Source: a virus. From it: 27,792 nt of DNA. The stretch spans positions 1 through 27,792 of IMG/VR virus record IMGVR_UViG_3300008267_001081, one strand, 5' to 3'. Position numbers and translations under genes: made by a program. Of the stretch, positions 5,670 to 25,598 are shown one piece after another. Numbering within the stretch: the first letter of the stretch is position 1; every line of letters begins with the position of its first letter. The notes beneath the pieces were generated by a model. The model made no database searches. It was not told the DNA's origin and saw nothing but the letters and a program-made list of their open reading frames with translations.

Positions 5670-7667
5670 TTATTTTCTTTTATAAGTTTTAACTTTCTTA
5701 ATTCCTTTTTTACCCATTCTTATATTTCCTTGAGGGTCCATATAATAATTTTTAGATTTAAGAAGATTCATTTTAATATCATCAGCATCTTTTTGTGCAG
5801 ACATTAATTTAGAAGCATCTGAAGCAGTATCAATACTTTGACCAAAAGCAACAAGTTGATCATTATACGCTCCCCTATTAGCTGCTCTTTGCATACCATA
5901 AGCATTCTTTAACTCTGTATTAGTTTGAGCTTCAGTATTACCTAGATCTACATTTCTATTTAAGATATCTTGTCTAGCAAGAGTATCCTGAATTACTGCA
6001 TCATTAGCTGCCTTCATTCTAGCAGAAGATAAATTTCCTGCTTGTGCAAGATATCTACCAGCATCCCCTGCTACAACATCTCTAGCACTCTCTCTACCTG
6101 CTTGCTCAGCAAGTTGAATTTCTTGAAGAGTCTTAGGAAGTTGAGAAGCATATTTATATCTACCTAATTTTAAGTAATTCTCAGGAACATTTTCTACACC
6201 TTGACTTAATACAGAACCTCTAGCAGAAACTTCTGCTAATGAGGGAACTATAAAATTTTTCCTTTGAGGAGGAATACTTCCTGGAGGCTGAGGTGGAGGA
6301 ATTATTTCAGTTTTCTTATCACCTTCTTCTACAGTATTTGTTTTACCTGGCTCATCTTTTGGTTTCTCTCCTTCAGTTTCTTTTAAAGCCTCTTGAACAG
6401 CTACATGGAAAGGTCCAACTTTTTGATCAGTAGAAAGTTTTTCAATTTTTTGTAATAATTGTTCATTATTAAGACCAGGAGTATTTACAATTCTTTGAAC
6501 ATCTTCATAATCTTGACCTTTATAGTTTTTAAGATAATTAACAATCTTTCCAGCTCTTTCTTTATCTTTTAAACCTCCAGCAACTGTTTGCATCCAAGCA
6601 GGATAGTTTTGTTCTGACCAAGTTTCATCATTAAATCTATCAGGTTGATAATCTAATCTTCCTTGAGTTTTAGCTTTATATGCATATGTTTTTCCTGTAC
6701 CAGTCCAAGTTTCTTTTGGAGCAGCTGGATTAGTAGTAACAGGAGCCATTTCTCCAGTAATAGGATTTCTAGTAAGAGTAGCATTAGATCCAGCAGGAAC
6801 TGCATTTGATTTAGGAGAACCCTCATTCCACATATCTATTCTTCCTTTTGAAGATTTTTCATATGCTTCTGGATTACCTTTTCTTGTCCATGTATCCTTT
6901 AAAATTTCATGTTTAGCAGAATCTATCTTTTTTATAAATTCAGGATTAGACATATTTTTAATAATCTCATCCTTTTTCTGATTAAATAAATTTAAATCAG
7001 TATTCTGTGTTTGTACATCATTTAAGTTTTTATCTCCACTAGCTAACAATAAAACATCTTCTACATTTCTTCCTGTATTATAAGCATAATCAACAAGTCT
7101 TTTTTGTACTTCTACAGGGTAATTTTTTACCATTGGAAGATATTCTTTTTTAATAAACTCAATAGCTTCTTTCTCATCTATTTTATTATCCTTCCACATT
7201 TTAGGATATTTAGAAGCATATTTTTCTTTTTGTATACCATAATTACTTAATCCAGTTCCGGCAGCACTTCCTGCAGTACTTTCATAATTTAAAATCTTCT
7301 TAATCCAAGAAAAATCGTCTTCATCTTCAGCATTAACATTTTTTGCACCTGGTTTAAATTTATATTTCTTATAAGTATTCTTAATACCATTCTTAGCTCT
7401 ATTGCTATCCTCAGGCATTTTATTTATAATCTTATTTAATCTTGGAAAATCTCCTTCTTCATATGCCTCAAGAGCTTGCATATTTTTACCACCATTAGCA
7501 GTAACAATAGCAGAACCTTCTGGAATAGTTAATGCTCCAGCACCATACTTGTATTTGCTCTTAGGATGTTTACAGCCACAGTTCTTCATACCTTTCTTAG
7601 CTTCAGGAAGATTCTCATCTCCTCTATATTGTTTTACGCTTTTAGCTCCTGATATAAGTTTATACAT
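5670..7667 (-). CDS. Virion-associated protein with muramidase-like (GH108-like) domain, 665 residues
   Basis: Residues 118-285 resemble the lysozyme-like family that includes TtsA (GH108). An ILNYESTAG segment carries a candidate catalytic Glu129. It is followed by SNYGIQ (141-146), matching the family's TNxGIT step, then a helix EVQKRLVDYAYNTGR (186-200), matching the fDxaVNxG region, and a closing GRIDMW near 275-280. The first 115 residues are basic and Gly/Lys-rich, with two copies of a recurring motif (LISGAKSV at 4-11, FKPGAKNV at 104-111) and a CGC at 30-32. Residues 290-500 are Pro/Thr-rich linker, and 500-650 are helical, Ala/Asn/Gln-rich. The basic C-terminus KKVKTYKRK resembles the end of the 417-residue protein. 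It probably opens peptidoglycan locally during DNA entry. Its start overlaps the preceding stop by 1 nt. The family match is by eye; a GH24-like fold is an alternative. Confidence 0.82.
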   Translation of the reverse strand: MYKLISGAKSVKQYRGDENLPEAKKGMKNCGCKHPKSKYKYGAGALTIPEGSAIVTANGGKNMQALEAYEEGDFPRLNKIINKMPEDSNRAKNGIKNTYKKYKFKPGAKNVNAEDEDDFSWIKKILNYESTAGSAAGTGLSNYGIQKEKYASKYPKMWKDNKIDEKEAIEFIKKEYLPMVKNYPVEVQKRLVDYAYNTGRNVEDVLLLASGDKNLNDVQTQNTDLNLFNQKKDEIIKNMSNPEFIKKIDSAKHEILKDTWTRKGNPEAYEKSSKGRIDMWNEGSPKSNAVPAGSNATLTRNPITGEMAPVTTNPAAPKETWTGTGKTYAYKAKTQGRLDYQPDRFNDETWSEQNYPAWMQTVAGGLKDKERAGKIVNYLKNYKGQDYEDVQRIVNTPGLNNEQLLQKIEKLSTDQKVGPFHVAVQEALKETEGEKPKDEPGKTNTVEEGDKKTEIIPPPQPPGSIPPQRKNFIVPSLAEVSARGSVLSQGVENVPENYLKLGRYKYASQLPKTLQEIQLAEQAGRESARDVVAGDAGRYLAQAGNLSSARMKAANDAVIQDTLARQDILNRNVDLGNTEAQTNTELKNAYGMQRAANRGAYNDQLVAFGQSIDTASDASKLMSAQKDADDIKMNLLKSKNYYMDPQGNIRMGKKGIKKVKTYKRK

Positions 7668-8071
7668 TACTTACCGGCTTTAATTTTCTTTTCTTGTTTA
7701 AGCATCTCAGGAGTAGGTTTCTTACCAGAACCTTTATTAGCTCTAATGTTATCCCAAAGACCTCTTTGAGAATAACTACCATCAGCTCTTTTAATCATCT
7801 CCTTCTTTTTAAAATTAATGCTTTTAGTTCCCTCAGCATATTTCATACCTTTAGAACCACACATCTTTTTATCTACATTCATAGACTTAGAACCATCCTC
7901 ATGTTTCCATTTAGCAGCATTCTGTGCAAAGATAGCTCTTTTCTTAGTAACAGGGTTTTTACTATGAGTAAGTTCTTCTGTAGTCTTACCAGTAGCTTTC
8001 TTAGTAGCTGTAAACTTGCCTCTATTTTCTGGTTTAATGTATATACCAGAACCACCCATCTTGAATTTCAT
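7667..8071 (-). CDS. Small basic conserved phage protein, 134 residues
   Basis: This is a very basic protein without hydrophobic segments. The first half carries IKPENRGKFTATKK and, further on, KKRAIFAQNAAKWKH, a pattern I recognise from small proteins of unknown function in crAss-like and other large phages. The second half contains GSK-type motifs (MCGSKGM at 70-76, YAEGTKSI at 78-85) and ends with a RGLWDNIRANKGSGKKPT segment, which also recalls short motifs common in large phages. The N-terminus MKFKMGGSG fits the motif family shared with neighbouring cargo proteins. It lies 16 nt after the 504-residue gene and overlaps the 665-residue gene by 1 nt. A minor virion or DNA-binding protein is plausible from charge alone; no function is known to me. 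Confidence 0.82.
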   Translation of the reverse strand: MKFKMGGSGIYIKPENRGKFTATKKATGKTTEELTHSKNPVTKKRAIFAQNAAKWKHEDGSKSMNVDKKMCGSKGMKYAEGTKSINFKKKEMIKRADGSYSQRGLWDNIRANKGSGKKPTPEMLKQEKKIKAGK

Positions 8072-8087
8072 AACTTTATTTTACGTT

Positions 8088-9602
8088 TTAACAGTTCCAT
8101 TTTCTAAGTGCTAAAGCTTTTCTTGTAGGTTTACCATTCTTTTCCATAGGTCCTTTAACACCAGACATTCTAGCACAGAAAGATTTTCTTCTATTAGCAT
8201 CTTTAGAACCTGCTTTAAGTTTAGATGGAGGAGTAGTAACAGCCATCTTAAGATTACCTCCAGTAGCTCTATTATACTTATCTACACCTTTTTGAGTAAG
8301 TCCACCTTTAGGATCTTTCTCTCCTCTACTAAAAGCTAAAGATACACCCTTACTTCCATCTTTATATTTAAGTACAGGTTTTACATCTTTAGATCCTTTC
8401 TTAAATGGAAAATATTTTCTATCTATACCAAGTATAGGTTTATTTAAAGGTTCAATAGCTTTTTTAAGATAAGGCAAAGTAAAATGTTCAAGCCCTGATC
8501 TTTTATAAGAATCACCATAATTTCCTTTTTCTAATTCTTGATATTCAGGTTGTGCAGAAGCTTTAACAGAAGGATTCTCATCAAATCTAATATTTTTTGC
8601 TTTAGCAGCATCTGCTTTAGAAAGTATTACTTCTCCAGGTTCTGAAAAATTACTAGTAGCAGTAGCTGTTGATTGTCCTGACATTCCTTTAGCAACATCA
8701 GGCATATTTTTTTCTAAATTTTCTGCGTTTAAAGTTGATGTTCTAAAAGTTTTTAAATTTCCAGGAGCAGACCTAGTACGACTATAAAAAGGAATAGCAT
8801 CTAAACGTCTAGTAAACCAAGAACCTGTTAATGCTTTCTGAGCATCTGTAAGTTCTTCTCCTGATTTTAATAAACCTTCTGGATAATAATCAGGTTGCCA
8901 TCTATACAAATTTTCATAAGTAGGTAACTTAAGTCTTCCACTTGCTTTACTAGCTTGATAAAAATCTTTACCATAGTTAGCAACAGGTTTTAATAATTTA
9001 TCATTTAACCCAGTATTCTTAATTCCAGACATTCCTAAAGCACCCATTCCTGCTTCTCCAAGAGCACTTCCATAATTTTCATTTTTAATATCTCTAACAA
9101 CTGCAGGAGCTCTATTAGCTATAGCATCATATGCACCATAAGCATTTAATCCTTGCCCAACAGTAAGTCCTGTTCCAGGAACTGTGGCACCTAATGCTGA
9201 AGTTGCTAAACGAGCAGTACTTCCTACTAATCCTGCTCCTGCTCCAACTGCAAGATCAACAGGGCTCATAGTCATATCTACTTGACCAGTAGCTTTTGCT
9301 TTTAAAGGATTCTTTTTTACATAATTTCTATATGCTTCATCTTTTTGTTTTTGTTTAGCAAATCTAACATTTGGACTATTTTCAGCCATCTTTCTATTTT
9401 GCTCACCATAAAAAGCTTGATTTGTAAAATTATCAATAGCAGGTGTATTAGAAAACTTTTTAGCTGCTGGAGCATTAAAGTTAAAAGTAGGTGTAGGAAA
9501 CAATTGAGTTCCTCCTTTAGAATTTAATTTCTTAGCATTTTGTATAGTGGGTCCTGCTTTAGCACCTTTAACACCATTATCTTTTTTAGTTATTATCTTC
9601 AT
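8088..9602 (-). CDS. Cargo-like protein with possible ART-like region and DUF6321-like C-terminus, 504 residues
   Basis: The start is a 4-nt ATGA overlap with the upstream stop, so translation is coupled. Residues 115-195 are Gly/Ala-rich and hydrophobic (LAVGAGAGLVG), resembling membrane-active segments. Residues 225-335 weakly resemble the ADP-ribosyltransferase fold: LYRW with Arg234, then GSWFT (260-264) followed by an Ala/Tyr/Ser segment, then EPGEVIL with Glu321/Glu324. The C-terminus carries three basic motifs (FKKGSKDV 400-407, YKDGSKGV 413-420, LKAGSKDA 462-469). The end, with RRKSFCARMSG and TRKALALRKWNC, matches from memory the consensus of small phage proteins annotated DUF6321, whose function is unknown. 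GPTIQNA at 17-23 is repeated in the 1139-residue protein. The gene is certain, the C-terminal family is likely, and the ART region is tentative. Confidence 0.84.
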   Translation of the reverse strand: MKIITKKDNGVKGAKAGPTIQNAKKLNSKGGTQLFPTPTFNFNAPAAKKFSNTPAIDNFTNQAFYGEQNRKMAENSPNVRFAKQKQKDEAYRNYVKKNPLKAKATGQVDMTMSPVDLAVGAGAGLVGSTARLATSALGATVPGTGLTVGQGLNAYGAYDAIANRAPAVVRDIKNENYGSALGEAGMGALGMSGIKNTGLNDKLLKPVANYGKDFYQASKASGRLKLPTYENLYRWQPDYYPEGLLKSGEELTDAQKALTGSWFTRRLDAIPFYSRTRSAPGNLKTFRTSTLNAENLEKNMPDVAKGMSGQSTATATSNFSEPGEVILSKADAAKAKNIRFDENPSVKASAQPEYQELEKGNYGDSYKRSGLEHFTLPYLKKAIEPLNKPILGIDRKYFPFKKGSKDVKPVLKYKDGSKGVSLAFSRGEKDPKGGLTQKGVDKYNRATGGNLKMAVTTPPSKLKAGSKDANRRKSFCARMSGVKGPMEKNGKPTRKALALRKWNC

Positions 9603-10852
9603 CTGTATACCTTAACTCTTTTAGAACCTTTATTAAAATCATTCTTAGTATTAAATGTACTTTTTGGTGGAGGTGGCTTCATTTCATAAAGCGTAGGAGG
9701 TTTTTCTGTTTTTACAGGACCTACAGCTTTTTTATGAGATCTAGGAGTATTTATTTTTTCTTGTCTTCTCTCCTCTTTAATTCGTCTTGCAACTTGATTA
9801 AGACCTACTGTTGGTTGTAGAAAATTATTAGCAGCATTAGCAGAAGGCATACCAGAAAGATTCTGAGATAGTGCAGCAGTATTTAAGTTATTAACCTTAA
9901 GTTGTTTAGATCCTACAGCCATCATACCTGTAGCTTTCTTATACCCTTCAGAAGATATATAATCTGCATATTGATTGGGAACCTTAATAGCTTCATTCTT
10001 AGAATTCATAATAGTGGGAAACATATAACTTTGCCCTCTATCATCTTCTCCATAAGCCATTTTATGAGTTGCTTTAGTATCAAAGTCATCCCATGTTTTA
10101 AACATATTAGTAGCTTGAGCTCTTTTAACAAAGTCTTTATCTTTGTTTCTATTCATTACTACTTTAGAAATAAGATCTCCTTCTAATTTATTAGTCCCCT
10201 CCTCATATTTCTTTTTAGGCATAACTACAGCCTTAACTCCCCCCTCCTCATGGGTAGGATCATTAGGATTATAGTAAAGAAGATCTCTGCTTCCATCAGC
10301 TTTCTTAGGAGAGAAGATAGGTTCTCTACCTTCAGTCTCAATAAGACGAGGTTGTTTACTCTTTACTTTATATTTACCTTTCTTAGCTAAGAAAGATTGA
10401 GCATCTGTAGAAGCACCTTGTTGAAACCCTTTATTAAAGTTTGAAGCTTCTACTAATCTTTCTTCTTCTTGAGCAGCAGCTTTAACTTTTTCATAATCTT
10501 TTTTACCTTTAATGCCCCCATAAACACCTCCAATAACACCTCCTGCTAATGCTCCCCAAGGGCCACCTAATTGCATACCTAATGCTGCACCAGAAGCTCC
10601 CATTTCTAAAGCACCTCCTGCAACAGAACCTGTTTTTTTATTTTTAGCTCTATTTCTAATTACATCTGCTGCTACACCACCTACTTGAGCAGCAGGAGCA
10701 AATGCTCCTGAAAACATTGATGCTGCTTGAGAAAGACCTTTATTTTTTGCAGCACCTTCAGTCTGTATTTCATAAGCTTTACTATAATCTGGTGTATCCA
10801 TTTCAATTTGTTGGATACCAGTAGTAAATTTATATTTCTTTTTATTTTTCAT
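9599..10852 (-). CDS. Glycine-zipper putative ejection/cargo protein, 417 residues
   Basis: The key feature is a long Gly/Ala-rich hydrophobic stretch at residues 76-116, including GALAGGVIGGVYGGIKG, a glycine-zipper pattern typical of peptides that insert into membranes and oligomerise. Before it is an Ala-rich segment (SQAASMFSGAFAPAAQVGG, 41-59). The rest is polar and basic, with a Pro/Lys-rich tail (380-400) ending in FNKGSKRV at 406-413 plus KVYR. The N-terminus KKKYKFTTG also resembles the shared basic motif. The start lies 2 nt after the muzzle stop and the end overlaps the next start by 4 nt, so it is the first gene of the coupled cargo operon. I infer a packaged protein that helps DNA or proteins cross the envelope, analogous in logic to podovirus ejection proteins. 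No homolog is named with confidence. Confidence 0.84.
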   Translation of the reverse strand: MKNKKKYKFTTGIQQIEMDTPDYSKAYEIQTEGAAKNKGLSQAASMFSGAFAPAAQVGGVAADVIRNRAKNKKTGSVAGGALEMGASGAALGMQLGGPWGALAGGVIGGVYGGIKGKKDYEKVKAAAQEEERLVEASNFNKGFQQGASTDAQSFLAKKGKYKVKSKQPRLIETEGREPIFSPKKADGSRDLLYYNPNDPTHEEGGVKAVVMPKKKYEEGTNKLEGDLISKVVMNRNKDKDFVKRAQATNMFKTWDDFDTKATHKMAYGEDDRGQSYMFPTIMNSKNEAIKVPNQYADYISSEGYKKATGMMAVGSKQLKVNNLNTAALSQNLSGMPSANAANNFLQPTVGLNQVARRIKEERRQEKINTPRSHKKAVGPVKTEKPPTLYEMKPPPPKSTFNTKNDFNKGSKRVKVYR

Positions 10853-10854
10853 GT

Positions 10855-13800
10855 TTATGCTACAGAAGGTTTGAAAAATGTCTTAATATAATTTAAGACT
10901 AAGGGCTTATCATCATTATACGATAGCTTAGTGTACAAGAACTTACCTTTTAAATGAGATTTAAATTCTGCATTAACATCAGTATTATTTACATCAAAAA
11001 TGTTTTTATATGGATCTATTACTGCATCAGGAGGAAGTTCTATATGAAAGGAACTTCTATAATAGTTAGCAGGAATTCTATCATTGTAATACTCAGACAT
11101 TAAATTATAATCATGAGAATAAAAAAGATCTAATTCTGTACTATTCTGTCTATCATTCCAACAATGAATAGTTGAAAAAGATTTATCATTAAAAATATAA
11201 TTATCTGGTTCTACAAATCCTGGAGAATATTTTTCTTGATCTCTACCAGACATAGTATTTATTTCCATCCTATCAAACCTCTTAAATGCATCAGGTTGAG
11301 TATTTTCTACAAAAGTTATATGAGAGTTTTTCTTTATTCCATTATCATTAGCAAGATTATAAAATGAATTATTATACCATGCATAAGAAGAACTATTAAT
11401 AGTTAAATAAGATGATGGTATAAAATCATGTAAGGATGTCCAAGTTTGAGTTTTAGGATAATAGGATATTACATAATTAAATGGAGTTCCTATTCCTAAT
11501 AAATTAATATCTTTTAATGGATATCCACTTAATTGTTTTATTTCTATATAATTTTCTCCACTGGTTAATTCTACTGTATACCTATTAAATAACCATGTTC
11601 TTTGCACTAATGGCGGAAGCCCTCCACCTATCGGAAAAAGAACATCTGTATAATCACTTATAGGTAAAGTTCTTGTCTCTATTAAATCAATTTGAAAATC
11701 ATCTATTTTTTTATAAATATTTAATGTGCAAGGACCTTGTAATCTTCCATCTAAAACTATTGTTTTATTATCATTTAAATTAAATTTAAAAAATATTGAA
11801 GATCCTAAATCTTCCCAGCTTCTTATTTTTATAGGAACATCTAAACTACCTAAATTTTTTGCTTTGCTTAATGAGTTGTGTGTACCATTATTTAAAACTT
11901 CTAATTGTCCATTATTAACAATACTATTTAAACTAGCTGAATAATTTTTGTCTGTAACAGATAAAAGTAATCTTTTATTTTTCCAATCATATCCAAAAGA
12001 ACATTTTTTATTTGGATTAATATTATCCCTGAAGAAGGAAAATAATCCTAAGTCAGATATTTCTACAGGAGAATCCCCAGCAAAAAGAAATACTTTTCTT
12101 TGAGAATGATCTATAAATACTCTACCAAAAGGAGTATTAACTCCACTCTTATCAAGAGTGCCCATATAACCTCCTTTAATATCAAGAATAAGTTTAGATG
12201 GTATTTTAAATATTCCAGCATTACCAAGTACTACATCTCCTTGAGATGTGCTTTGTATAGTATTAGGATTAAAGTAAGATAACCATAATCCATATTCTGT
12301 ATGGTGATAGAAGTTATTATTAAATACAAATGTATCTGTTATAGTACCTCTATCTTTAGGAATATCATGAAATTGTAAAGCAGGAAATATTCTATATTGA
12401 TCAGATAACTCACTCTCAAATGATTGTTTTGAGTAAATAGTTCTATTCTCAAAAACATTATTTTCTGAGAATAGAAGAGGTCTTGGAAAATTTAACTTAT
12501 TATTATTAAGTGCAGAATATTGTTTATTATATCCTAAACTTCTATAATACCAATAGTTTCCAAACATATCATGTGAACCACCAGTAAAAAAAGTTTTAGT
12601 TTGAGGATAATAAAGTCCTTCATTAGATGCTCTATGTCTAAGAGAAAAGTTATTTTGAGAATTTAACCATACTCCTGCAACAAAATCAAAATTAAATTGT
12701 CTTTCAATATTATCTATAGTTTGTTTATGAATACTTCTAATATTAAACCAATGTTTAAAAGTATAAGTATCTCCCTCTACCTCAACTTGAGTTTGAGAAG
12801 GATCCAATACTGTTTCAGCAACTAAATATTCTGCATTATAAATATTACCATATTGATTAGAAATTGGATTAGTAACTCTACCTATTGATAGATTTTGAGT
12901 TTCAACTTGACGAACAGAAACTATTCTTTTTGCTCTATCAACATTATTATCATCAGACCAATCTCTCCAATAGTGACTAATTATTGTAACATTTTGTTGA
13001 CCTATATAAGAATCCCAAATTTGACCTTGAGTTTCAATGTGTACATAATTAGTACCTCCTCCTACATATACTTTACCATCAACAATATTAGTTGTATTTC
13101 CAGGATAATCACCATTATTTGTTAACGATTTAACAATAGTTGTAGGAGCATACATTCCTTGTGTATGTTTATTTCCATCAAAAAACTGAGCATCATAAGT
13201 ATAATTATTATCCTTACTTCCTGCATGTTTTAATATAGAAGGTCTTGTAAAATATTTATTTGCTGCTGCAGCTATACCATTATAATAATAATGTTGTGCC
13301 TCTCTTTGAATATGAAATTTAAAACCTTCTTTTATTTCTAATCCTATTTGTGTACTAGGAGAGTAATACATTGCGTATGGGTGAGAAGGACCTATAGCTA
13401 TTCCAGCACTTGATTGACCAATGTCTCCTCTAAAAGAACACCTACCATTTAATACCCCATTATAATATTTTCCAGTTTGAGGCCAATAGTTATAAGGAAT
13501 TGCAACACCTTCATCAATTATACTAGTATTTATATCTTTATTTCTTTGTTGAAATCCAATGATATAACCTTGAATTTTATCTTTAATTGCTTGAGGAAAA
13601 ATAATATTAAAAAATCTTACTCTTAAAATATTTACTGATGCTGCTGGATCATAAACATTAGTTGTAGGATTTAAATCGCCACTTACAATAGTCATACTTG
13701 GCATTCTATGGTGCCTAATTTTGGTTCCTATTGGACCCATATTCATATAACTAGGATAATCAAGATCACTAACATATTTTTTAGTAGTTGTATAATTAGA

Positions 13801-15141
13801 GAACGCTGGATATTCTGTAAAATTATCTTTATTACAAGGTATATGATATGCAAAACCTATACTACCATCTTTATAAATTGGAGTAATGGAAAATGAGTAA
13901 ACTTCATTTGGTTGAAAACCTTTTTTAAGAGAAGAGTCTTTATAAAAATTTGTTCCATTATTATAATCATCTGTTACACTTTGATCAAACCACTGATCTA
14001 CAACATCAAAGCTGTTTGTTGAATCATCATCTACAGAACCAAAACCTATTCTATCAGTAGTTGTATCTGAAGCAACATCATAACCTCTTACATTAATTCT
14101 TCTTGTAATATCAATAGGTCTTTTTTCTATATAAGTAGTAACTACAATATTATTAGCAACTTGTTGAAAGTTATCATCAAATCTTTTTGTAGTAAGATTA
14201 GATAATAAAAGTATTCCATCTTTTTGTTCTATACACTTAGCCCCCTCATAATATACAGGAAGATCTTGTACTGAGTCAAGATTTATACTTTCTCCTAGTT
14301 GAGAATCTGAAGTAAGAGAAACTGTAATTTTAGTATCATTTCTATATAAACCAAGACTTTTAACTACTCTAACACTAGCAATACCTTCATATTTAATTAC
14401 ACCTATCTCAATAAGTGGGTAATTTAAATCAGAACCTTCTATACTTATTTGTATTTGTTTATCTGAAGTTTCATCTGGAGGAGCTCCTTGATCAGATTCT
14501 ACAGAAGAACCTGAAGGAATTACAGAAATCATTCTTGATGGAATATTCCATTGAGTTTTATTATTACTAGCATCAATATATCTTGTAATAAAAGAATATA
14601 CAGTAGTTTTTAAAGTTCCTCCTGTAGAAATTATAGTTGAAAGTTTAGGATATTTAACTGTAAGTTGTAAGTTAAAATCTTCATAACCATTATAAAGAGT
14701 TGGATCATTTAAGTATAAATCTAAATCAAATCTTCTAATAGGATTGCCATCTTCTACAAAATAAGTTACTCTACTACCAGAAGATACTATTCTAGCTACA
14801 CAATCTATTTCATTAGTAAAGTTTAGTTTATAAGTATGGTTTTTATCATTAAAGATTTCTGTATAAGTTCCTTCTGAGAAAGTTCCAATAACAGAATTCC
14901 AAATTTTATCAGTATCATTATAAGATTTAAGAAAACATATAAATTGGTTCTTAATTGGACAATGACCTAAGAGAACTGTATCCTCAGAAAATGTGTGTAC
15001 AATATTTTCTAAATCTTCGTTTATAAGTCTACCGCTATCATTTCTAATCCAGTTAAGGGCATCAATATAGCTACCCTCTGGTTGCATTTGGGGGCTATTA
15101 CTTCTATGTAATCCTTTATCAAAACTATTTGCTCCTTCCAT
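10855..15141 (-). CDS. Muzzle-like tail-tip protein, 1428 residues
   Basis: At 1428 residues this is the largest complete protein in the window. Its N-terminus (FDKGLHRSNSPQMQPEGSY, then IDALNWIRNDSG, residues 7-37) matches the pattern I know from crAss-like tail-tip proteins and related podovirus tail-tube proteins, roughly KGLxxxxSPxxQPEGxYxxALN. The remainder is beta-rich with many Asn, Tyr and Thr residues and lacks signal peptide, transmembrane or low-complexity regions, as expected for a structural protein. It follows the three ring/neck genes and precedes the cargo genes, the position occupied by the muzzle in Bacteroides phage crAss001, where this protein forms a roughly 1 MDa gatekeeper at the tail end. 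It starts 8 nt after the 269-residue gene. The identity rests on size, N-terminal motif and order. Confidence 0.87.
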   Translation of the reverse strand: MEGANSFDKGLHRSNSPQMQPEGSYIDALNWIRNDSGRLINEDLENIVHTFSEDTVLLGHCPIKNQFICFLKSYNDTDKIWNSVIGTFSEGTYTEIFNDKNHTYKLNFTNEIDCVARIVSSGSRVTYFVEDGNPIRRFDLDLYLNDPTLYNGYEDFNLQLTVKYPKLSTIISTGGTLKTTVYSFITRYIDASNNKTQWNIPSRMISVIPSGSSVESDQGAPPDETSDKQIQISIEGSDLNYPLIEIGVIKYEGIASVRVVKSLGLYRNDTKITVSLTSDSQLGESINLDSVQDLPVYYEGAKCIEQKDGILLLSNLTTKRFDDNFQQVANNIVVTTYIEKRPIDITRRINVRGYDVASDTTTDRIGFGSVDDDSTNSFDVVDQWFDQSVTDDYNNGTNFYKDSSLKKGFQPNEVYSFSITPIYKDGSIGFAYHIPCNKDNFTEYPAFSNYTTTKKYVSDLDYPSYMNMGPIGTKIRHHRMPSMTIVSGDLNPTTNVYDPAASVNILRVRFFNIIFPQAIKDKIQGYIIGFQQRNKDINTSIIDEGVAIPYNYWPQTGKYYNGVLNGRCSFRGDIGQSSAGIAIGPSHPYAMYYSPSTQIGLEIKEGFKFHIQREAQHYYYNGIAAAANKYFTRPSILKHAGSKDNNYTYDAQFFDGNKHTQGMYAPTTIVKSLTNNGDYPGNTTNIVDGKVYVGGGTNYVHIETQGQIWDSYIGQQNVTIISHYWRDWSDDNNVDRAKRIVSVRQVETQNLSIGRVTNPISNQYGNIYNAEYLVAETVLDPSQTQVEVEGDTYTFKHWFNIRSIHKQTIDNIERQFNFDFVAGVWLNSQNNFSLRHRASNEGLYYPQTKTFFTGGSHDMFGNYWYYRSLGYNKQYSALNNNKLNFPRPLLFSENNVFENRTIYSKQSFESELSDQYRIFPALQFHDIPKDRGTITDTFVFNNNFYHHTEYGLWLSYFNPNTIQSTSQGDVVLGNAGIFKIPSKLILDIKGGYMGTLDKSGVNTPFGRVFIDHSQRKVFLFAGDSPVEISDLGLFSFFRDNINPNKKCSFGYDWKNKRLLLSVTDKNYSASLNSIVNNGQLEVLNNGTHNSLSKAKNLGSLDVPIKIRSWEDLGSSIFFKFNLNDNKTIVLDGRLQGPCTLNIYKKIDDFQIDLIETRTLPISDYTDVLFPIGGGLPPLVQRTWLFNRYTVELTSGENYIEIKQLSGYPLKDINLLGIGTPFNYVISYYPKTQTWTSLHDFIPSSYLTINSSSYAWYNNSFYNLANDNGIKKNSHITFVENTQPDAFKRFDRMEINTMSGRDQEKYSPGFVEPDNYIFNDKSFSTIHCWNDRQNSTELDLFYSHDYNLMSEYYNDRIPANYYRSSFHIELPPDAVIDPYKNIFDVNNTDVNAEFKSHLKGKFLYTKLSYNDDKPLVLNYIKTFFKPSVA

Positions 15142-17032: not shown

Positions 17033-17058
17033 TAACTGTGAGTCTCCGATTTTATATC

Positions 17059-18309: not shown

Positions 18310-18331
18310 TTTTTTTAATTTGTTTTTTAGT
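18310..18331 (-). promoter_or_regulatory. A-rich translation leader of the auxiliary capsid gene
   Basis: The minus-strand sequence directly before the ATG is AAAAACAAATTAAAAAAA, almost the same as the leader of the major capsid gene (21088-21110, with AAAAACAAATAAAATAAA). No Shine-Dalgarno is present. Bacteroidota ribosomes favour A-rich, unstructured leaders, and the sharing of this element by two abundant head proteins suggests a matched strong initiation site. Confidence 0.45.
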
Positions 18332-18342
18332 TATAAATTTAT

Positions 18343-18978: not shown

Positions 18979-18979
18979 A

Positions 18980-19843
18980 TTATGCAGTTAATACCTTATC
19001 ATACGCTTTCTCAACAAGGTCTTTAAGCTCTTGATTTTTCTTATCTTTTAAGAACTTATAAATCTCATCAAAGGTAAAGCCCAATTGAATACCATTAAAC
19101 TTGTATCCATTATTATCCTTAATAATAGCTCCTGAGAGGAATAATTGGTTATACTTATATTTCTCATCTACAGAAGGATCATTCATTAGTGCTACAAGAG
19201 TATCTGCCTGTTTAGGAGATCCCTCAATATAATCTGTAAGTCTCTCATCAATAGCAGCATCTAAGAGATTATTAGCACTCTTACCAGTAATAACTGTAAA
19301 GTACTTTCTCTTATCTTCTGGAGTAAGTGTGAGATACTTAGCATAAGCTTCAGCTTTATGTCTTCTATTCTCAACTTTCTGCTTAGAAGCTTCTGCAAGA
19401 GAAGTCAATTCTAAGAGAGCTGATGAAGATGGATTAGGGTTATTATAAGCAATAGAGGGATTGGCAATCATAAACTTAACCTTTAGATTATTCCAAACCT
19501 CATCAATATCAGCTTCTCCTGTCTCAAGAGTAGTACCATTATCTTTACCCTCAGTATCTAAGTTAACCTCATAATCTACCCAGAAACCATTATGCATTTC
19601 ACCAAAGCACTCAATTGGACTATCATACCAAAAGTTGCTTCTAGGAGAGAAGTAGCCCATTGGCTTACCTAGTTTCTCCTCAAAATATTTCTCATCTTCT
19701 TTAGTAAGACCAGTAATAAAGTTATTAGACATATCCTTATATGCCACAATCCTATACTTAGTCTTATCAAATTGGGTAAACTTTTTACCCCCTTTAGTAA
19801 ATCCCCAAGAACTCTTAGGAATACTTCTTAATCTATACTTCAT
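18980..19843 (-). CDS. Conserved head-region protein downstream of MCP, 287 residues
   Basis: I place the start at the ATG at 19843-19841 (MKYRLRSIPKSSWGF) rather than the TTG at 19873 that extends the frame by ten residues, because ATG is preceded by a typical A-rich leader (AAATAAAATTAAAACAT) and the extra residues look untranslated. The protein is mixed alpha/beta with conserved-looking segments GYFSPRSNFWYDSPIE and HNGFWVDYEVNLD, an EADIDEVWNNLK helix and, in the C-terminal half, helices rich in Lys and Glu (EEKLGKP earlier; KFLKDKKNQELKDLVEKAYD at the end). It directly follows the capsid gene after a large hairpin and is coupled to the connector gene. I do not recognise its function; a head-completion or packaging accessory role fits the location. 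Confidence 0.8.
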   Translation of the reverse strand: MKYRLRSIPKSSWGFTKGGKKFTQFDKTKYRIVAYKDMSNNFITGLTKEDEKYFEEKLGKPMGYFSPRSNFWYDSPIECFGEMHNGFWVDYEVNLDTEGKDNGTTLETGEADIDEVWNNLKVKFMIANPSIAYNNPNPSSSALLELTSLAEASKQKVENRRHKAEAYAKYLTLTPEDKRKYFTVITGKSANNLLDAAIDERLTDYIEGSPKQADTLVALMNDPSVDEKYKYNQLFLSGAIIKDNNGYKFNGIQLGFTFDEIYKFLKDKKNQELKDLVEKAYDKVLTA

Positions 19844-19878
19844 ATGTTTTAATTTTATTTCTTGTTGTTGCAAATATA

Positions 19879-19930
19879 TGTTGAAATAGGATAGGAAGTC
19901 AGGAAAAATTCCTGCTCCTATCCTACAACA
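19879..19930 (-). terminator. Large hairpin after the major capsid gene (attenuator or mRNA-stabilising)
   Basis: In the 99-nt gap after the capsid stop, a perfect 9-bp stem AGGATAGGA/TCCTATCCT (19888-19924) encloses an inner CAGGAA/TTCCTG pairing. It is flanked by TGTTG/CAACA arms (19879-19883 and 19926-19930). No long T-run follows on the minus strand, so full intrinsic termination is doubtful. Partial termination or protection of the capsid mRNA 3' end would both raise capsid yield relative to downstream genes. Confidence 0.65.
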
Positions 19931-19942
19931 ACATGAGAAAAA

Positions 19943-20389
19943 TTAGACGAATTTACCAATCTTAGCAGGAATCAGTTCACCAGCTGAAAGAGGATCTTTC
20001 AGAAGGATACCAGACCTTCTAATCATGTGGATTTGAGCACCATCAAGGGCAGAACTAGAAGGAGCAAATCCTTGCTTGTAGTTACCATTGATGTCAGTCA
20101 TACCTTCAATCTGGATTGAACCCATCTGAGCACCTTTTAAGGTTACTTTAACAAGGTTAGCACCATTAGCATTGTTACCAATGTTGAAGATAGTGAAACG
20201 AGAGGATTCCAGAGGATATCCAGTAGCAGGGTCAAGTTGTCTGTTAAGAACAATATCATCATACAGAGGACAATGTACTACAGTTACCTCAAGACCATTA
20301 GGGAACATACAGGTTTTGAACTGAGAACCAAAGCTCATATTCATTCCAGAGCCAGATACAAACTGTCCACCTTCATAAACGCTTCCCAC
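19943..20389 (-). CDS. Major capsid protein, C-terminal part (frame-shifted from N-terminal part)
   Basis: This frame encodes the C-terminal third of a crAss-like HK97-fold capsid protein: GGQFVSGSGMNMSFGSQF, PNGLEVTVVHCPLYDD, NRQLDP then YPLESSRFTIFNIG, and the closing SGILLKDPLSAGELIPAKIG. The pattern of FxSGSGxNxxFGxQF, a P-L-Y-D segment, an SxR-T segment and a final LLKDPxxxGEL is characteristic of these proteins. Its only start is a GTG at 20389 immediately preceded by an in-frame TAA and internal to the other frame, so it is very unlikely to be an independent gene. It is the continuation of the capsid gene after a frame break. The central portion normally found before GGQF is absent. 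The GTG-started product would lack the A-domain core. Confidence 0.82.
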   Translation of the reverse strand: MGSVYEGGQFVSGSGMNMSFGSQFKTCMFPNGLEVTVVHCPLYDDIVLNRQLDPATGYPLESSRFTIFNIGNNANGANLVKVTLKGAQMGSIQIEGMTDINGNYKQGFAPSSSALDGAQIHMIRRSGILLKDPLSAGELIPAKIGKFV

Positions 20390-21087
20390 TTAGCCTTCTC
20401 AATCCAAGAGAAAGTTTTGCTTCCATCAGATTTAGTCAACTCAATAGCAATCTTTTGTTTCATAGCTTCAGCAGAGATAGCATGCTCAATTCTGTGAGTA
20501 GTGAAGTAGTTTTCAAACTTGGCAGGAGAGAAGAAATCTACCCAACCACCTCTGTCTGACATTTCAGATACTGGAGAGTAAGCACGGCTAAGTTTAGCAC
20601 CTACAGTTACATCATTAGAATCAAAATATTGAGCAGGATCAGAGAATTGGAAAGTATATAACCAACCATTACCAGTCTGAATAGGATCAGCAATGATGTT
20701 TACAAGAGCACCACTATCTGTTCTTACTTTATCAATACCAGAGAACCACTTTTCTTCCAAAGTCAATTGTACAGGAGCACAGTTAAGACCAAGGTTAGTA
20801 CCAGTAGCACCAGCAGTAATTTTGATAGTTCTATCATTCATATAGGCTACATCCCACTGATAGATATTGCTATCAATTTCTTTCTCTTCAATTCTACCAA
20901 GAGCCTCAGTAAGACACTGGAGAGAGTGACCATATTGCTTACCAAGAAGGTAAGACACTACCTGTCCAAATTGGAAAGGTTTGCGAAGCAGTAACTGATC
21001 AAGCTTGTTGCTATCAGTCAGTGCACCTGAGACCGCCCTGGCATCAATGAGCCTAGGGAGATTACTGGAATTTACATTAACATCCAT
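20341..21087 (-). CDS. Major capsid protein, N-terminal part (truncated by deletion/frameshift)
   Basis: The first 235 residues have the N-terminal pattern of crAss-like major capsid proteins: LPRLIDARAVSGAL, then RKPFQFGQVVSYLLG, YGHSLQCLTEALGRIEEKEI, EEKWFSG and GWLYTFQFSDPAQYF, followed by FENYFTTHRIEHAISAEAMK and FSWIEKAKWEAFMK. After FMK the frame reads nine or so unrelated residues and stops, while the next frame takes up the capsid C-terminus. Family members are roughly 490-510 residues; the two parts here add up to about 375 family-like residues, so around 115 residues are missing at about 20371. The start ATG follows an A-rich leader shared with the auxiliary capsid gene. As written, no full-length capsid protein could be made. 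Confidence 0.85.
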   Translation of the reverse strand: MDVNVNSSNLPRLIDARAVSGALTDSNKLDQLLLRKPFQFGQVVSYLLGKQYGHSLQCLTEALGRIEEKEIDSNIYQWDVAYMNDRTIKITAGATGTNLGLNCAPVQLTLEEKWFSGIDKVRTDSGALVNIIADPIQTGNGWLYTFQFSDPAQYFDSNDVTVGAKLSRAYSPVSEMSDRGGWVDFFSPAKFENYFTTHRIEHAISAEAMKQKIAIELTKSDGSKTFSWIEKAKWEAFMKVDSLYLALE

Positions 21088-21110
21088 TTTATTTTATTTG
21101 TTTTTTTAAG
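21088..21110 (-). promoter_or_regulatory. A-rich translation leader of the major capsid gene
   Basis: The minus-strand sequence before the ATG is AAAAACAAATAAAATAAA with no Shine-Dalgarno. Its close match to the leader of the auxiliary capsid gene (18310-18331), including the ATGGA start context, suggests a shared strong Bacteroidota-type initiation element. Confidence 0.45.
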
Positions 21111-21129
21111 GTTTTACAATTTTTAAATT

Positions 21130-22110
21130 TTAAATAATGATGTCATCAAAGTCATCTATATTACTATTTCTCTTACTACCAGAGGAACCTGAACGAATAT
21201 TATTATCCTTCTGGCTCTTCAAAGCTTTAGAGAGTCTATCAGAAACATTAGTAGTAGCTCTTCTTTGTAAATCATCACTATTAAAGTTAGTATAGTACAT
21301 AAAAGCCATCACTAATTGTTTCTCATAATCCTGAGCATCCATTTGAAGTTGAGTTAGTCCATTAGCATTTGGCCTTGTCATATATTGAAAGAAATCTTCT
21401 CTAGTTCTTCTATCAAGAGAAAACCCTTGAATTTCTTCAATACTATCAATAGTATTTTTAAGAACTGCCATTTGCTCTATTAGATATTCCTCTTCTTCAG
21501 CTTTTCTATTTTCTAAAGACTCAAGATATTCTTGAACTTGATATTGTTGACCTTGCACTAATGCTCTATATGCTTCATCAACTTCATTATAGAAAGTTCC
21601 ATCATCTTTAGAACTATTAATCAGACGAGCAATCTTATCCTCAGAAAGACCTTTAGCAGTATAGTAATCAATTACTACTTGTTCTTGAGTACCTGCATCA
21701 GTCATATCCAATTCACTGTAGTCTACTTCTTTATAAATTTCTAGCACATCTTGGATTGAACCTCCTCTTTGTACTACATCATAAAGTAATGCTAGGTCTT
21801 CATTTTCTTCAAATGTAGCTTCAATTCTAGCATTTACAGTATCCTCAAGGAGTTCTTCAACACCATTTTCATCAATGTCATACTCCTTTTGCTCATCTGC
21901 ATACAAAACTCCTCTTTCTACCAAATCCTCCATGAGAATCTGGTAAGGAGTTTTATCTTCATCATCAATCTCCCCCTCAATATCTTCAAAATCATCTTCA
22001 GAGTATTCATACTCTTCAAAATCATCTTCAAGATCCTCCTCTACTTCTGTCTCTCCAGAAGTAAGTTTTTCATTTTCTAATTCTTCATTTTCTACAAAAT
22101 CACCAAACAT
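21130..22110 (-). CDS. Putative scaffolding protein, 326 residues
   Basis: The N-terminal 55 residues are extremely acidic (EVEEDLEDDFEEYEYSEDD), and the remainder is almost entirely helical and charged (YQVQEYLESLENRKAEEEEY, LIEQMAVLKNTIDSIEEI). A short polar, basic stretch (SKALKSQKDNNIR, SGSSGSKRN) precedes a final acidic/hydrophobic tail DDFDDIII. Acidic, helical proteins encoded directly before the major capsid gene are typical scaffolding proteins in tailed phages. A 42-nt gap separates it from the capsid start. A candidate CGTATAA box lies 19 nt before its ATG. The scaffold label is from composition and position; no cleavage site or protease is identifiable. Confidence 0.8.
   Translation of the reverse strand: MFGDFVENEELENEKLTSGETEVEEDLEDDFEEYEYSEDDFEDIEGEIDDEDKTPYQILMEDLVERGVLYADEQKEYDIDENGVEELLEDTVNARIEATFEENEDLALLYDVVQRGGSIQDVLEIYKEVDYSELDMTDAGTQEQVVIDYYTAKGLSEDKIARLINSSKDDGTFYNEVDEAYRALVQGQQYQVQEYLESLENRKAEEEEYLIEQMAVLKNTIDSIEEIQGFSLDRRTREDFFQYMTRPNANGLTQLQMDAQDYEKQLVMAFMYYTNFNSDDLQRRATTNVSDRLSKALKSQKDNNIRSGSSGSKRNSNIDDFDDIII
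21983..22030 (-). repeat. 18-bp perfect direct repeat within the scaffold gene
   Basis: TCTTCAAAATCATCTTCA (plus-strand reading) occurs at 21983-22000 and again at 22013-22030, a 30-bp period. It encodes the EDDFED/EDDFEE acidic repeats, so the acidic tail probably grew by local duplication. Confidence 0.7.
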
Positions 22111-22129
22111 GTTGTTCTAATTTAAATTG

Positions 22130-22136
22130 TTATACG
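22130..22136 (-). promoter_or_regulatory. CGTATAA box before the scaffold gene
   Basis: CGTATAA on the minus strand lies in the 68-nt gap between the 1139-residue gene and the scaffold gene, 19 nt before the ATG. It follows an AT-rich hairpin. It is one of three intergenic copies of the box in this window and a candidate late-promoter element for the scaffold/capsid unit. Confidence 0.4.
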
Positions 22137-22152
22137 AGGTTTTATTATGTTC

Positions 22153-22171
22153 TCTAATATTTTTTATTAGA
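22153..22171 (-). terminator. Weak AT-rich hairpin after the 1139-residue gene
   Basis: TCTAATA pairs with TATTAGA around a five-base loop, just past the stop codon of the 1139-residue gene. The stem is A/T-rich and no T-run follows on the minus strand, so termination is doubtful; it could be an mRNA 3'-end structure or chance in AT-rich DNA. Confidence 0.3.
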
Positions 22172-22178
22172 ATTTTTA

Positions 22179-25100
22179 TTAACCACCAGTTTTCATTTGA
22201 GAAGCAGCATACATTCCTGCACCAACAGTACCAGCTGCTATTGCACTCTTTTTCTTATTATTTTTAACAAAGTTAATAGCCTTTTTACCAGTTTCTCTAG
22301 CTTTTCTTCCAGCTGTTCTAGTTACATTACCAACACTTTGTCTAAAATTAGCTTGTGCAGGACCTTGTACTGCACCTTGTGCAGGAGCAGCAGGAGTTGC
22401 AGTGTTTGCAGAACTATTTTTTGGGTATACTTTACTAGGTGTTGGGCTTCCTTTAGCAGGAGCTTTAGGACCAGTATAAGTACCTTTACCTTGTTTTGCA
22501 GGATTAACTGTAAACTTACCTCCATTACCTCTTGTTGTAGCAAATTTACCAGGTTTTAAAGTAATTTTTGCAGCTTGTGCAGTACCTTTACTAGCAGCTT
22601 GAGATGCAGCCTGACTAGCTCCTTGAGATGCAGCTTGTCCACCTGCTTGAGCAGTAGCTTTACTACCACCTCTACCTACTAATTTACCTGCAGCTCTACC
22701 TGTAGCACCAACAGCTCTACCTAGTGGTGAAGCAGCCATTTTAGCAGCTTCTTTGCCAGCAAATTTCATTACAGCACCACCAACAGGTTTAACAAGTCTT
22801 CCTCCGGCACCTCCTATAGCTCCAAAAGCAGCTTCACCAAGAGAGTATCCTTCTTGAGATTTATCATCTTCTTCTCTATAACCAAGTTTTTTATTTAACC
22901 AGTTACCAAAAGCTTTACCTGCTCTATCACCGACAATACCTCCAGCTACAGAACCTACTCCAAATGTAGAACCTCCTGCAAGTGCAGCTCCTCCAAGTGA
23001 GCCAATAGTTCTTGAACCAATATCAATTACTTCATCCATATAGGTATCATCACCTTTTCTTTTAGGAGCAGCTTTAGGTTTGTCCCAACTAAATTTTACT
23101 GTTTTATTATCACTGGTATATTTACCCATTTTGCCAGTTTTTTCATCAAAAACTCTACCATTAGTATAATAAGAACGTCCTGTTTTTTTATCTTTAAAGT
23201 TTTTAACAGCTACACCATTTTTAAATAAAGAAGATTCTGCAGGTGCAGAAGTTTTTTCACTTCCTCCACTTGATCCACTTCCTCCTTTTCTTTTTTGATT
23301 TTTTGAAGATGATTTTTTAACAACAGTACTTGCTGGTGTTTCAGTCTTAGTTTCTGTTTTAGCAGGAGGAGTTGTAGATTGTTGAATCATCTCATCAACT
23401 TTAGTTTTTGGAGTTTCTGGAGCTTTATACTTTTCTTCATATGGTCCATACTCACTATACTTAATTAAATCAGAATCTTGTTTACCAGTAATAGCACTAT
23501 ACTCACCTTTAAGACTATTAATTTTTTCTTTTAATCTTTCAGCTCTATTAGCTACTCTAAGTTCTTTTGATTCTTTTCTATTTAAACCTCCAGGAAGAAT
23601 ACCACCAAGTCTAGCATCTATTTTTTCATACATACTAGGTTTTTTACCTGCTTCTAAAGAAGGAGTACCTCCTGCAAATGTTTGTATTCTTCCATTGGCA
23701 GAAATTCTTTCTCCTTTACCAACAAGTTTATTTCTTAATTGAGATTCATTTTGAATTGCAGTAACATCAGTTCCTTGACCTTTATTACCAGCATTAAAAG
23801 AATATTTATTAGCTTCTGTATCAGAAGGAAGAGATTGTGAGTTTCTAGCAATCTCAGCTTGTCTAGCTTTTCTTTTAGCATCTGCAATGGCTTGAGTTTT
23901 AGCATCTTCTGCTCTCCATCTTCCTAAAGCTTCCATATTAGCTTGTCTTAAGACAGGACTATCAAATTGATTATATGTTTTTTTTGCAGGAGCAGTAACA
24001 GTAACTTGATCAAGTACAGTACCTTTAGCACCAAGAGCTCTAGCTTCTTTAAGGTTTTGAGCATTTTGAATAGTAGGACCTTGACCAGTATTTACAGTAC
24101 CTCTTCTAGATGTATCAATTGTTTTACCTTTAGTATAAGCATTATGAATTCTTTGAGTTTCTTTTCCCCAAATACCATCTACTTTAATATTGTAACCAGC
24201 ATCTTTTAATTTTTGTTGATAGGCTCTAACTTTATTATTACCTAATGATTTAGGACTAGATAATTTAGGAGTAGAAGTTTGACCATATGCCATAGTAGGA
24301 GTTAGTGTAGTACTTTCTCTTCTCATGTCTGAAGGAGGCTGATTTTCAATATTTTTTTGTAAAAAAGCTCTTTTTCTATCTTCAGCATTTGCTTTCATTG
24401 ATTGTGCTTCTGCATAATTAGCAGCTAATCCAGAAGATAAAGTAGCATCTTCAACTCCACCTTCATATTTAATAAGACTTTTTCTTTTTTTCATATTAGT
24501 ATTTAAATTTTTTGTTCCTGTTTTAAAATCGCCAGAAGCTCCACCACCACCAAATCTTCCACCTCCAAACCCTGCAAATTGAGAAGGTTTGCCATCATAC
24601 TTAACAAGAGTTTTAACTTTTTTTTCTTGTAAAGGTAATGTATTTTTTTGTGGAATTTCAGGAGCATCTACATCTTCTTCAATAGTAGTATTTTTAACTT
24701 GTGGTACTTTTTTTCTTTTTGATGCTGTCCAAGCTGCTTGAGTTTTTGGTCCCCAAATACCATCATCTTTAACACCAAGTTTTCTTTGAATTTTTTTTAT
24801 TCTTTCTTTTTCACTTTCAGCTTCTCCTTCCATTCTTCTTATTTGAAGAAGAGTTCTTTGTGCAGAAGGACTTTCAGGATTTTCTCTTGGACCAGAAGTA
24901 TTAAGTAAACTAATTTCTTCTTTTGGAGTTTCTACAGTTGGAGTTTGAATAGTTTGAGGAGTTTGTCTTTTTTTAACAACTTGCCTCATTACTCTATTTT
25001 CTTCTACAGGAGTTTTTTCAGCTTCTTTGGAAGAATATACATCTTTATAAGCTTCATTATATTCTTGATCAGCTTGCTCAATTCTAGACATTGCTTTTTT

Positions 25101-25598
25101 AGCAAAAGCTTTTTGAGCAAACTTTGGAAGTTTAGAGATAAGATAATCTTTATTACTTAAGAGATCTGCTTTTACAAGTTCTTCTGTATCTTTAAAAGAT
25201 AAGTTATTTAAATCTTTACCTCCATTTTTATATTTTACCATTTTGCTTCCTTTCTTATAAGGTTTAGCATTAGGATTAGGTTTTTTCATAAGTAATGGAG
25301 CTATTGATCCAGCAGCTGAAGCAATAGCACTTCCATAGTTACCCATAAAAGCGCCTGCTTTATCTTTAAAAGAAAGTTTGTTTTTAGAATTTATTAATTG
25401 ACTTATATCTCCACTAGCTGCTGATTCCCCATTGCGAATAGTACTAGAAGAAGTAGTTGTATATTGTTGAAGTGCAGCATTTCCAGGATTTACCATTTCA
25501 GAGTTTCCTCCAAAACCATAATTCCATCCTCCTGTAGTACTGTAAGTATTGCCAGTAAGGTTATTAACTCCAGGATAATATTTTTTTACTTTCTTCAT
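22179..25598 (-). CDS. Large capsid/cargo-like protein with two peptidoglycan-binding-like repeats, 1139 residues
   Basis: Two segments match the PG_binding_1 pattern (Q-L, then vDGiWGxxT, then a helix): IKKIQRKLGVKDDGIWG with PKTQAAW (267-290) and VRAYQQKLKDAGYN with VDGIWGKETQ (457-482). The rest is mostly disordered, basic and Gly/Pro/Thr/Gln-rich. Recurring basic motifs occur at YKKGSKMV (114-121), YKNGGKDL (123-130) and FKTGTKNL (358-365), plus LVKY/LIKY variants. Residues 864-900 and 920-975 are glycine-zipper-like (AALAGGSTFGVGSVAGGIVG), and the extreme C-terminus is hydrophobic (AIAAGTVGAGMYAA). GPTIQNA (507-513) is shared with the 504-residue protein. It lies between portal and scaffold, 3 nt after the small 96-residue gene. 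I infer a packaged protein that engages the cell wall and membrane; no catalytic domain is visible. Confidence 0.83.
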   Translation of the reverse strand: MKKVKKYYPGVNNLTGNTYSTTGGWNYGFGGNSEMVNPGNAALQQYTTTSSSTIRNGESAASGDISQLINSKNKLSFKDKAGAFMGNYGSAIASAAGSIAPLLMKKPNPNAKPYKKGSKMVKYKNGGKDLNNLSFKDTEELVKADLLSNKDYLISKLPKFAQKAFAKKAMSRIEQADQEYNEAYKDVYSSKEAEKTPVEENRVMRQVVKKRQTPQTIQTPTVETPKEEISLLNTSGPRENPESPSAQRTLLQIRRMEGEAESEKERIKKIQRKLGVKDDGIWGPKTQAAWTASKRKKVPQVKNTTIEEDVDAPEIPQKNTLPLQEKKVKTLVKYDGKPSQFAGFGGGRFGGGGASGDFKTGTKNLNTNMKKRKSLIKYEGGVEDATLSSGLAANYAEAQSMKANAEDRKRAFLQKNIENQPPSDMRRESTTLTPTMAYGQTSTPKLSSPKSLGNNKVRAYQQKLKDAGYNIKVDGIWGKETQRIHNAYTKGKTIDTSRRGTVNTGQGPTIQNAQNLKEARALGAKGTVLDQVTVTAPAKKTYNQFDSPVLRQANMEALGRWRAEDAKTQAIADAKRKARQAEIARNSQSLPSDTEANKYSFNAGNKGQGTDVTAIQNESQLRNKLVGKGERISANGRIQTFAGGTPSLEAGKKPSMYEKIDARLGGILPGGLNRKESKELRVANRAERLKEKINSLKGEYSAITGKQDSDLIKYSEYGPYEEKYKAPETPKTKVDEMIQQSTTPPAKTETKTETPASTVVKKSSSKNQKRKGGSGSSGGSEKTSAPAESSLFKNGVAVKNFKDKKTGRSYYTNGRVFDEKTGKMGKYTSDNKTVKFSWDKPKAAPKRKGDDTYMDEVIDIGSRTIGSLGGAALAGGSTFGVGSVAGGIVGDRAGKAFGNWLNKKLGYREEDDKSQEGYSLGEAAFGAIGGAGGRLVKPVGGAVMKFAGKEAAKMAASPLGRAVGATGRAAGKLVGRGGSKATAQAGGQAASQGASQAASQAASKGTAQAAKITLKPGKFATTRGNGGKFTVNPAKQGKGTYTGPKAPAKGSPTPSKVYPKNSSANTATPAAPAQGAVQGPAQANFRQSVGNVTRTAGRKARETGKKAINFVKNNKKKSAIAAGTVGAGMYAASQMKTGG

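Follow-up and report, generated by a model that had tools for sequence, protein, structure and literature searches.

A conserved aromatic-x-x-Gly peptide at the module joints of C1-type proteins of crAss-like phages

Among human gut viruses, crAss-like phages are the most common; they also have aquatic cousins. The closest described relative of the genes considered here comes from Bacteroides phage phiCrAss001: its cargo protein C1, gp45, which belongs to the gene 49 family of Crassvirales (PDB 7qog and 8ckb). The virion packs this protein together with gp46, gp47, gp49, and gp50 and stores one part of it in the tail and the other in the capsid; it is proposed to exit first, from its N to its C terminus and with partial unfolding (PMC10172136). 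Residues 214 to 245 are ordered on the wall of the tail barrel and residues 425 to 552 on the portal, while most of the chain is unresolved in cryo-electron microscopy (cryo-EM) (PMC10172136). Here we describe a short peptide motif that recurs in C1-type proteins encoded by IMG/VR virus record IMGVR_UViG_3300008267_001081, a 27.8-kb stretch analyzed as a whole (the window). An earlier note on this DNA had read the motif as a candidate packaging tag shared by five otherwise unrelated cargo-like proteins; the observation itself was confirmed and the interpretation was partly supported. We found no description of the motif in open-licence full texts.

A precisely spaced motif enriched in C1-type proteins

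The strict form, [FY]KxG[STAG]Kx[VLI], occurs six times in the window, with three copies in a 1,139-amino-acid (aa) protein, two in a 504-aa protein, and one in a 665-aa protein (Table 1), versus about 0.01 or fewer copies expected in all from shuffles that keep composition. Relatives were sampled through the portal protein, a relative of which is encoded at 40 IMG/VR loci; ten contigs were taken (one of them 31 bases short) and their open reading frames (ORFs) called. For family-wide statistics over eleven related contigs, we used the relaxed form [FY]xxG[STG][KN]x[VLIM], which was found 38 times in the five families versus 0.7 expected, and twice in the other ORFs of the same contigs (142,000 residues) versus 4.9 expected. 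Orthologous copies are not independent, but the window alone still gives 6 versus about 0.01. Three listed copies match the relaxed form only and are weak on window statistics alone: LISGAKSV (665 aa), YAEGTKSI (134 aa; per-protein shuffle P of ~0.06), and FNKGSKRV (417 aa; P of ~0.19). They are nonetheless held at equivalent sites in relatives, as SGAK[SA]VKQYRGDEN in six of six 665-aa homologues, as KYA[ED]GTK[SK]I in the 134-aa family, and as F[NK][KN]G[SG]K[RKY][VI]KVY at the end of the 417-aa module. Throughout the 22 sequences of the 1,139-aa family, PYKxG never varies at P, Y, K, or G. Degenerate copies beyond the first list are YEEGTNKL (417 aa, residue 216) and KHEDGSKSM (134 aa).

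The motif strings named in the earlier note are all present, although not all are copies. None of the refuting outcomes on enrichment, occurrence in other proteins, or conservation that the note had listed was seen. LKAGSKDA lies inside a DUF6321 domain (PF19846) and was discarded, and MCGSKGM is a partial match that has no aromatic residue. The restriction to cargo-type proteins held: the motif is absent from capsid, portal, ring, and nonvirion proteins, and the 529-aa protein has no copy. The muzzle, where none had been seen, does carry one relaxed match (YYEGAKCI, residue 297), but it is within chance, as is FTKGGKKF in a 297-aa protein. YLIGAKSV in a 392-aa protein of the relatives was set aside as a coincidence; that protein reads like an SF2-type helicase from its sequence.

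Proteins in the C1 slot of other crAss-like phages carry the same punctuation with a different filling. Across 19 C1-slot proteins of 16 phages, [FY]xxGG was observed 37 times versus 8.4 expected; it was not significantly above chance in proteins at the C2, gp47-like/giant, gp49/50, muzzle, major capsid protein (MCP)/portal, or ring/adaptor positions or in nonvirion proteins of phiCrAss001. With the 134-aa alignment as query, 160 viral contigs were recovered and 80 retained. At nine of these loci, with positions assigned by gene order and size (PHROGs confirmed only the muzzle of locus L115), ORFs between the muzzle- and C2-position genes held 86 copies versus 9.4 expected, and neighboring ORFs held 10 versus 12.7 expected. 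The spacing is exact: 96 copies have two residues between the aromatic residue and GG, versus 10 to 30 for other spacings, 21 for the mirror pattern, and 13.2 after shuffling within 25-residue windows. The K-rich form of the window is thus one lineage's version of a more widespread feature. Motif-bearing proteins of this slot have been found in virions, namely, g070 and g069 of Cellulophaga phage phi14:2 (tandem mass spectrometry, per the record annotation) and gp45 of phiCrAss001 (mass spectrometry and cryo-EM; PMC10172136).

Module joints in an apparently split C1 and in the 1,139-aa protein

All motif-bearing and landmark genes lie on the minus strand, in the order portal, 96 aa, 1,139 aa, 326 aa, MCP, ring/adaptor-type proteins, the 1,428-aa muzzle-position protein, 417 aa, 504 aa, 134 aa, 665 aa, 529 aa, and the start of a giant protein. 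PHROGs and tblastn linked portal, MCP, and muzzle with families found in Flavobacterium phages (Fipvunavirus) and in Crassvirales. The 417-, 504-, 134-, and 665-aa genes occupy the muzzle-to-C2 slot, which is that of gene 45 in phiCrAss001, and the order muzzle, C1, C2 is common to diverse crAss-like phages. Residues 6 to 57 of the 134-aa protein match residues 372 to 425 of gp45 (51% identity over 53 residues; E value of 2.3e-5 in a search of all PDB chains). Because the slot matches that of C1 and the 134-aa protein matches gp45, the four ORFs look like a fragmented C1.

The case for C1 identity differs among the pieces. It is strong for the 134-aa protein and moderate for the 417- and 665-aa proteins, in each case as judged by sequence comparison. 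The 417-aa profile matches the N terminus of Suoliviridae C1 (hhalign, 90%) and, in the single-chain C1-slot protein L152, the Gly-zipper part (E value of 1.1e-10). The C-terminal profile of the 665-aa protein matches the C terminus of another such protein (L116; E value of 7.2e-5); the database behind both E values had 39 sequences. When the 665-aa C terminus was compared directly, profile to profile, with C termini of gut C1 proteins, no clear match emerged, but two C1 groups that share the slot do not detect each other either. The 504-aa protein has no sequence match to gp45 and is assigned only from its position and from fusion: two relatives carry the 417- and 504-aa modules as a single ORF (G006, 449 aa; G002, 366 aa). 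Its C-terminal domain scores 85.4 bits against a Pfam cutoff of 28.5 and is a member of DUF6321. The description of the five proteins as otherwise unrelated was thus right only in part, given the fusion of the 417- and 504-aa modules and the homology of the 134-aa protein to part of gp45. In place of independent cargoes sharing a tag, four of the five look like fragments of one ancestral C1.

The copies sit where modules meet. In the 134-aa alignment, the inserts of one relative (G003) fall at HEDGSKSM and KYAEGTKSI, and the motif flanks each insert on both sides. The 665-aa family reads KYKYQPGGKDI, insert, then YKYGTGAL, and the 417-aa family shows similar motif-bounded inserts. Local-alignment ends lay within 8 residues of a motif in 23% versus 8%, 15% versus 6%, and 25% versus 8% of cases in three sets, that is, 2.4 to 3 times more commonly than at random positions; control proteins gave 0 of 27. 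Other phages carry the two modules of the 134-aa protein the other way round, again with the motif between them. Codon sharing among copies of the same genome was about that predicted from codon usage (ratio of about 1.1 in the larger sets), which indicates that the peptide, and not a DNA repeat, is conserved. gp45 has motif-like sites at residues 207, 260, 425, and 559, so that both of its ordered segments (214 to 245 and 425 to 552) are bracketed.

The 1,139-aa protein beside the portal gene is built in a similar way. Its head comprises a conserved N-terminal leader (KKYxxG), a hydrophobic helix-like stretch, and a double motif; mean identity in the family is 0.28 over residues 1 to 74, and conservation drops after the second motif copy. 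The variable part contains peptidoglycan-binding modules (PF01471 at residues 455 to 482; E value of 1.1e-7). In a distant relative (G008; portal 36% identical), a 502-aa, otherwise unrelated protein of the portal-side slot (L077:12518-14026, minus strand) has GYKKGSKYVSGLKKRYC as its C-terminal end.

The KFTA module (IHIKPENRGKFTATKKATGKSTEELTHSKNPLTRKRAIFAQNAKKWKH) is about 50 residues long, strongly conserved, and mobile; it was found in the window (7667-8071) and in the 160 viral contigs (L109 to L187). Its carriers include large C1-slot proteins as well as phage proteins that are small or have no other relation to them. The carrier in the window, the 134-aa protein, matched nothing in Pfam or PHROGs. 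Homologues of the 134-aa protein at L054:9134-9652, L063:10923-11858, and L074:12762-13232 carry a motif-bounded, EF-hand-like insert (FPDLNKDGxITxADxLxGxGV), for which Pfam gave nothing in the one homologue scanned. HExxH-type strings (HEFLH, HEFTH, and HEFIH) in variable parts of C1-slot proteins at L067:3608-5944 and L090:24104-25885 suggest metallopeptidase-like enzyme modules; Pfam gave no metallopeptidase confirmation for the L067 protein. For the 665-aa protein, weak PDB matches to T4 lysozyme (phmmer, E values of ≥0.04) over a helical stretch were taken as chance, and its AlphaFold model had no Foldseek match at an E value of ≤0.001.

Table 1. Motif copies, the proteins that carry them, and flanking landmarks in the window
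Feature	Coordinates	Strand	Remarks
1,139-aa protein, beside portal gene	22179..25598	-	Constant head, variable remainder in 22 sequences
YKKGSKMV, residues 114-121 of 1,139-aa protein	25236..25259	-	Strict match; PYKxG invariant, 22/22
YKNGGKDL, residues 123-130 of 1,139-aa protein	25209..25232	-	KYxxG in most homologues; conservation stops right after
FKTGTKNL, residues 358-365 of 1,139-aa protein	24504..24527	-	Strict match
Muzzle-position protein, 1,428 aa (landmark)	10855..15141	-	Motif at chance level
417-aa protein, first gene after muzzle	9599..10852	-	Gly-zipper membrane-like segment as in N-terminal part of C1
YEEGTNKL, residues 216-223 of 417-aa protein	10184..10207	-	Degenerate; insertion point in relatives
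FNKGSKRV, residues 406-413 of 417-aa protein	9614..9637	-	At 417/504 junction, fused in G002 and G006
504-aa protein	8088..9602	-	Variable N-terminal part, motif pair, C-terminal DUF6321
FKKGSKDV, residues 400-407 of 504-aa protein	8382..8405	-	Strict match
YKDGSKGV, residues 413-420 of 504-aa protein	8343..8366	-	Strict match; directly precedes DUF6321
DUF6321 domain, residues 428-502 of 504-aa protein	8097..8321	-	PF19846, E value of 4.3e-24; contains LKAGSKDA, not a copy
134-aa protein	7667..8071	-	KFTA module (6-57) and RADG module (92-132), linked by GSK/GTK copies of the motif
YAEGTKSI, residues 78-85 of 134-aa protein	7817..7840	-	Relaxed match, conserved in family
665-aa protein	5670..7667	-	Constant head, variable middle, helical C-terminal part
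LISGAKSV, residues 4-11 of 665-aa protein	7635..7658	-	Relaxed match, conserved in homologues
FKPGAKNV, residues 104-111 of 665-aa protein	7335..7358	-	Strict match
529-aa protein, C2 (gp46) position (landmark)	4075..5664	-	No motif; C2 identity from position only

Elsewhere in the window, the major capsid gene is split into two ORFs of 248 and 148 aa (19943-21087, minus strand). These match residues 1 to 240 and 342 to 486 of 484- to 486-aa orthologues, so that about 100 residues are absent and the frame is changed, through either an assembly error or a defective gene. The giant protein (3-4073, minus strand) has a weak PD-(D/E)XK nuclease-like stretch at about residues 1189 to 1304. The muzzle used as bait gave no match in viral contigs, and a near-identity search gave no match among named phages.

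A probable connector of ejected modules and its alternatives

We favor, with a probability of roughly 60%, the reading that the motif is a conserved inter-module connector of the C1-type ejection proteins of crAss-like phages. In the lineage of the window, C1 would be split into four ORFs and accompanied by the similarly built 1,139-aa protein. Gly-zipper membrane-like, KFTA, RADG, DUF6321, peptidoglycan-binding, and other modules would be joined by [K][FY]-x-x-G-[ST]-[KN]-x-[VLI] in this lineage and by [FY]-x-x-G-G-x-[IL] in other crAss-like phages. The peptide probably behaves as a hinge or short beta-turn; such a turn could leave every module free to dock, to unfold, and to pass through portal and tail on its own, and could tolerate the insertion of new modules. 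Several points weigh against this reading. The 417- and 665-aa proteins have weak homology to gp45 itself, and the link is indirect. Two of the gp45 sites (AYGG and AFGG) are pattern variants in which the aromatic residue adjoins GG. Alignment ends may be drawn to the motif partly through its own conservation. No structure shows the motif, and the AlphaFold models, built from six-sequence alignments with mean predicted local distance difference test scores of 39 (417 aa) and 52 (665 aa), are too poor to be read for its conformation. Finally, a plain linker has no obvious need for the conserved aromatic and aliphatic residues, which hint at binding.

That hint leads to the main rival, docking by the motif itself, which is compatible with a connector role, so that both could be true together. 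The copies would bind a repeated virion surface (ring proteins, portal wing, or muzzle interior) and anchor C1 at intervals, with the K-rich form matching the partner of this lineage. We consider this putative role possible but rather unlikely. The aromatic, Gly, and aliphatic positions are conserved over lineages, a K/R-rich [FY]xxG leader stands at the N terminus of many C1 proteins and of the 1,139-aa family, order in gp45 begins at or just after motif-like sites, and the unrelated portal-side protein of the distant relative ends in GYKKGSKYVSGLKKRYC; however, the resolved contacts were assigned to a helical segment and a compact domain and not to the motif (PMC10172136). A bolder version, in which aromatic-x-x-Gly-[Gly/Ser/Thr] is an order-wide docking and delivery code anchoring C1 at repeated sites lining the tail barrel and portal, and in which the leader and double motif of the 1,139-aa protein form a delivery head for interchangeable passengers ejected into the host, is likewise rather unlikely.

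Proteolytic release of modules from a polyprotein at putative cleavage sites would suit the Gly-small-residue core, the location at module borders, and the existence of the modules as separate ORFs in this lineage. We think it improbable: the cryo-EM study reports no cleavage and describes both parts of gp45 as belonging to a single chain (PMC10172136), and no protease was identified in this analysis. The general cargo-loading tag originally proposed is less probable again. It would account for the restriction of the motif to cargo-type proteins and for the presence of at least one copy in every C1 piece of the window, but it is disfavored because other packaged proteins (C2 and RNA polymerase) do not have the motif: gp46, gp47, gp49, gp50, and their positional counterparts are at chance level, and the copies stand at module joints, several to a protein. 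A DNA-level recombination site or repeat relic, to which the motif duplicates flanking inserts might point, was rejected as very improbable on the codon test. Chance in Lys/Gly-rich sequence, with which single relaxed copies are individually compatible, is the least credible explanation and was rejected on the whole-protein and 25-residue local shuffles, the mirror pattern, the spacing test, and conservation.

The conserved punctuation predicts C1 module borders from sequence alone, aids recognition of C1 genes in very divergent phages, split ones included, and names specific residues for mutation in a cultured crassvirus. Wall-binding and other modules appear to be shuffled through one injected protein.

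Comparison with known systems

Like the ejection proteins of podoviruses (P22 gp7, gp16, and gp20; T7 gp14, gp15, and gp16), C1-type proteins would be stored in the virion and ejected before the DNA; we know of no such repeated junction motif in the podovirus proteins. Encapsulin-type loading peptides are single and terminal. They resemble the motif in being short, conserved, and located where the cargo is disordered or of low confidence, whereas the window motif is multicopy, internal, placed at module joints, and not shared by the other cargo that is packaged. The 504-aa protein clearly has a DUF6321 domain at its C terminus, but that domain is widespread in phages (cyanophages and pelagiphages), and the motif lies just ahead of it, outside the domain. 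The nearest counterpart is gp45. It is a single 842-aa chain with [FY]xxGG and has neither DUF6321 nor the RADG module, while the window has four ORFs with [FY]KxG[ST]K and both of these modules; gp45 has been seen in the virion spanning tail and capsid (PMC10172136). Across these differences, the two share the slot after the muzzle, the Gly-zipper segment, the KFTA module, and a repeated aromatic-x-x-Gly-[Gly/Ser/Thr] punctuation.

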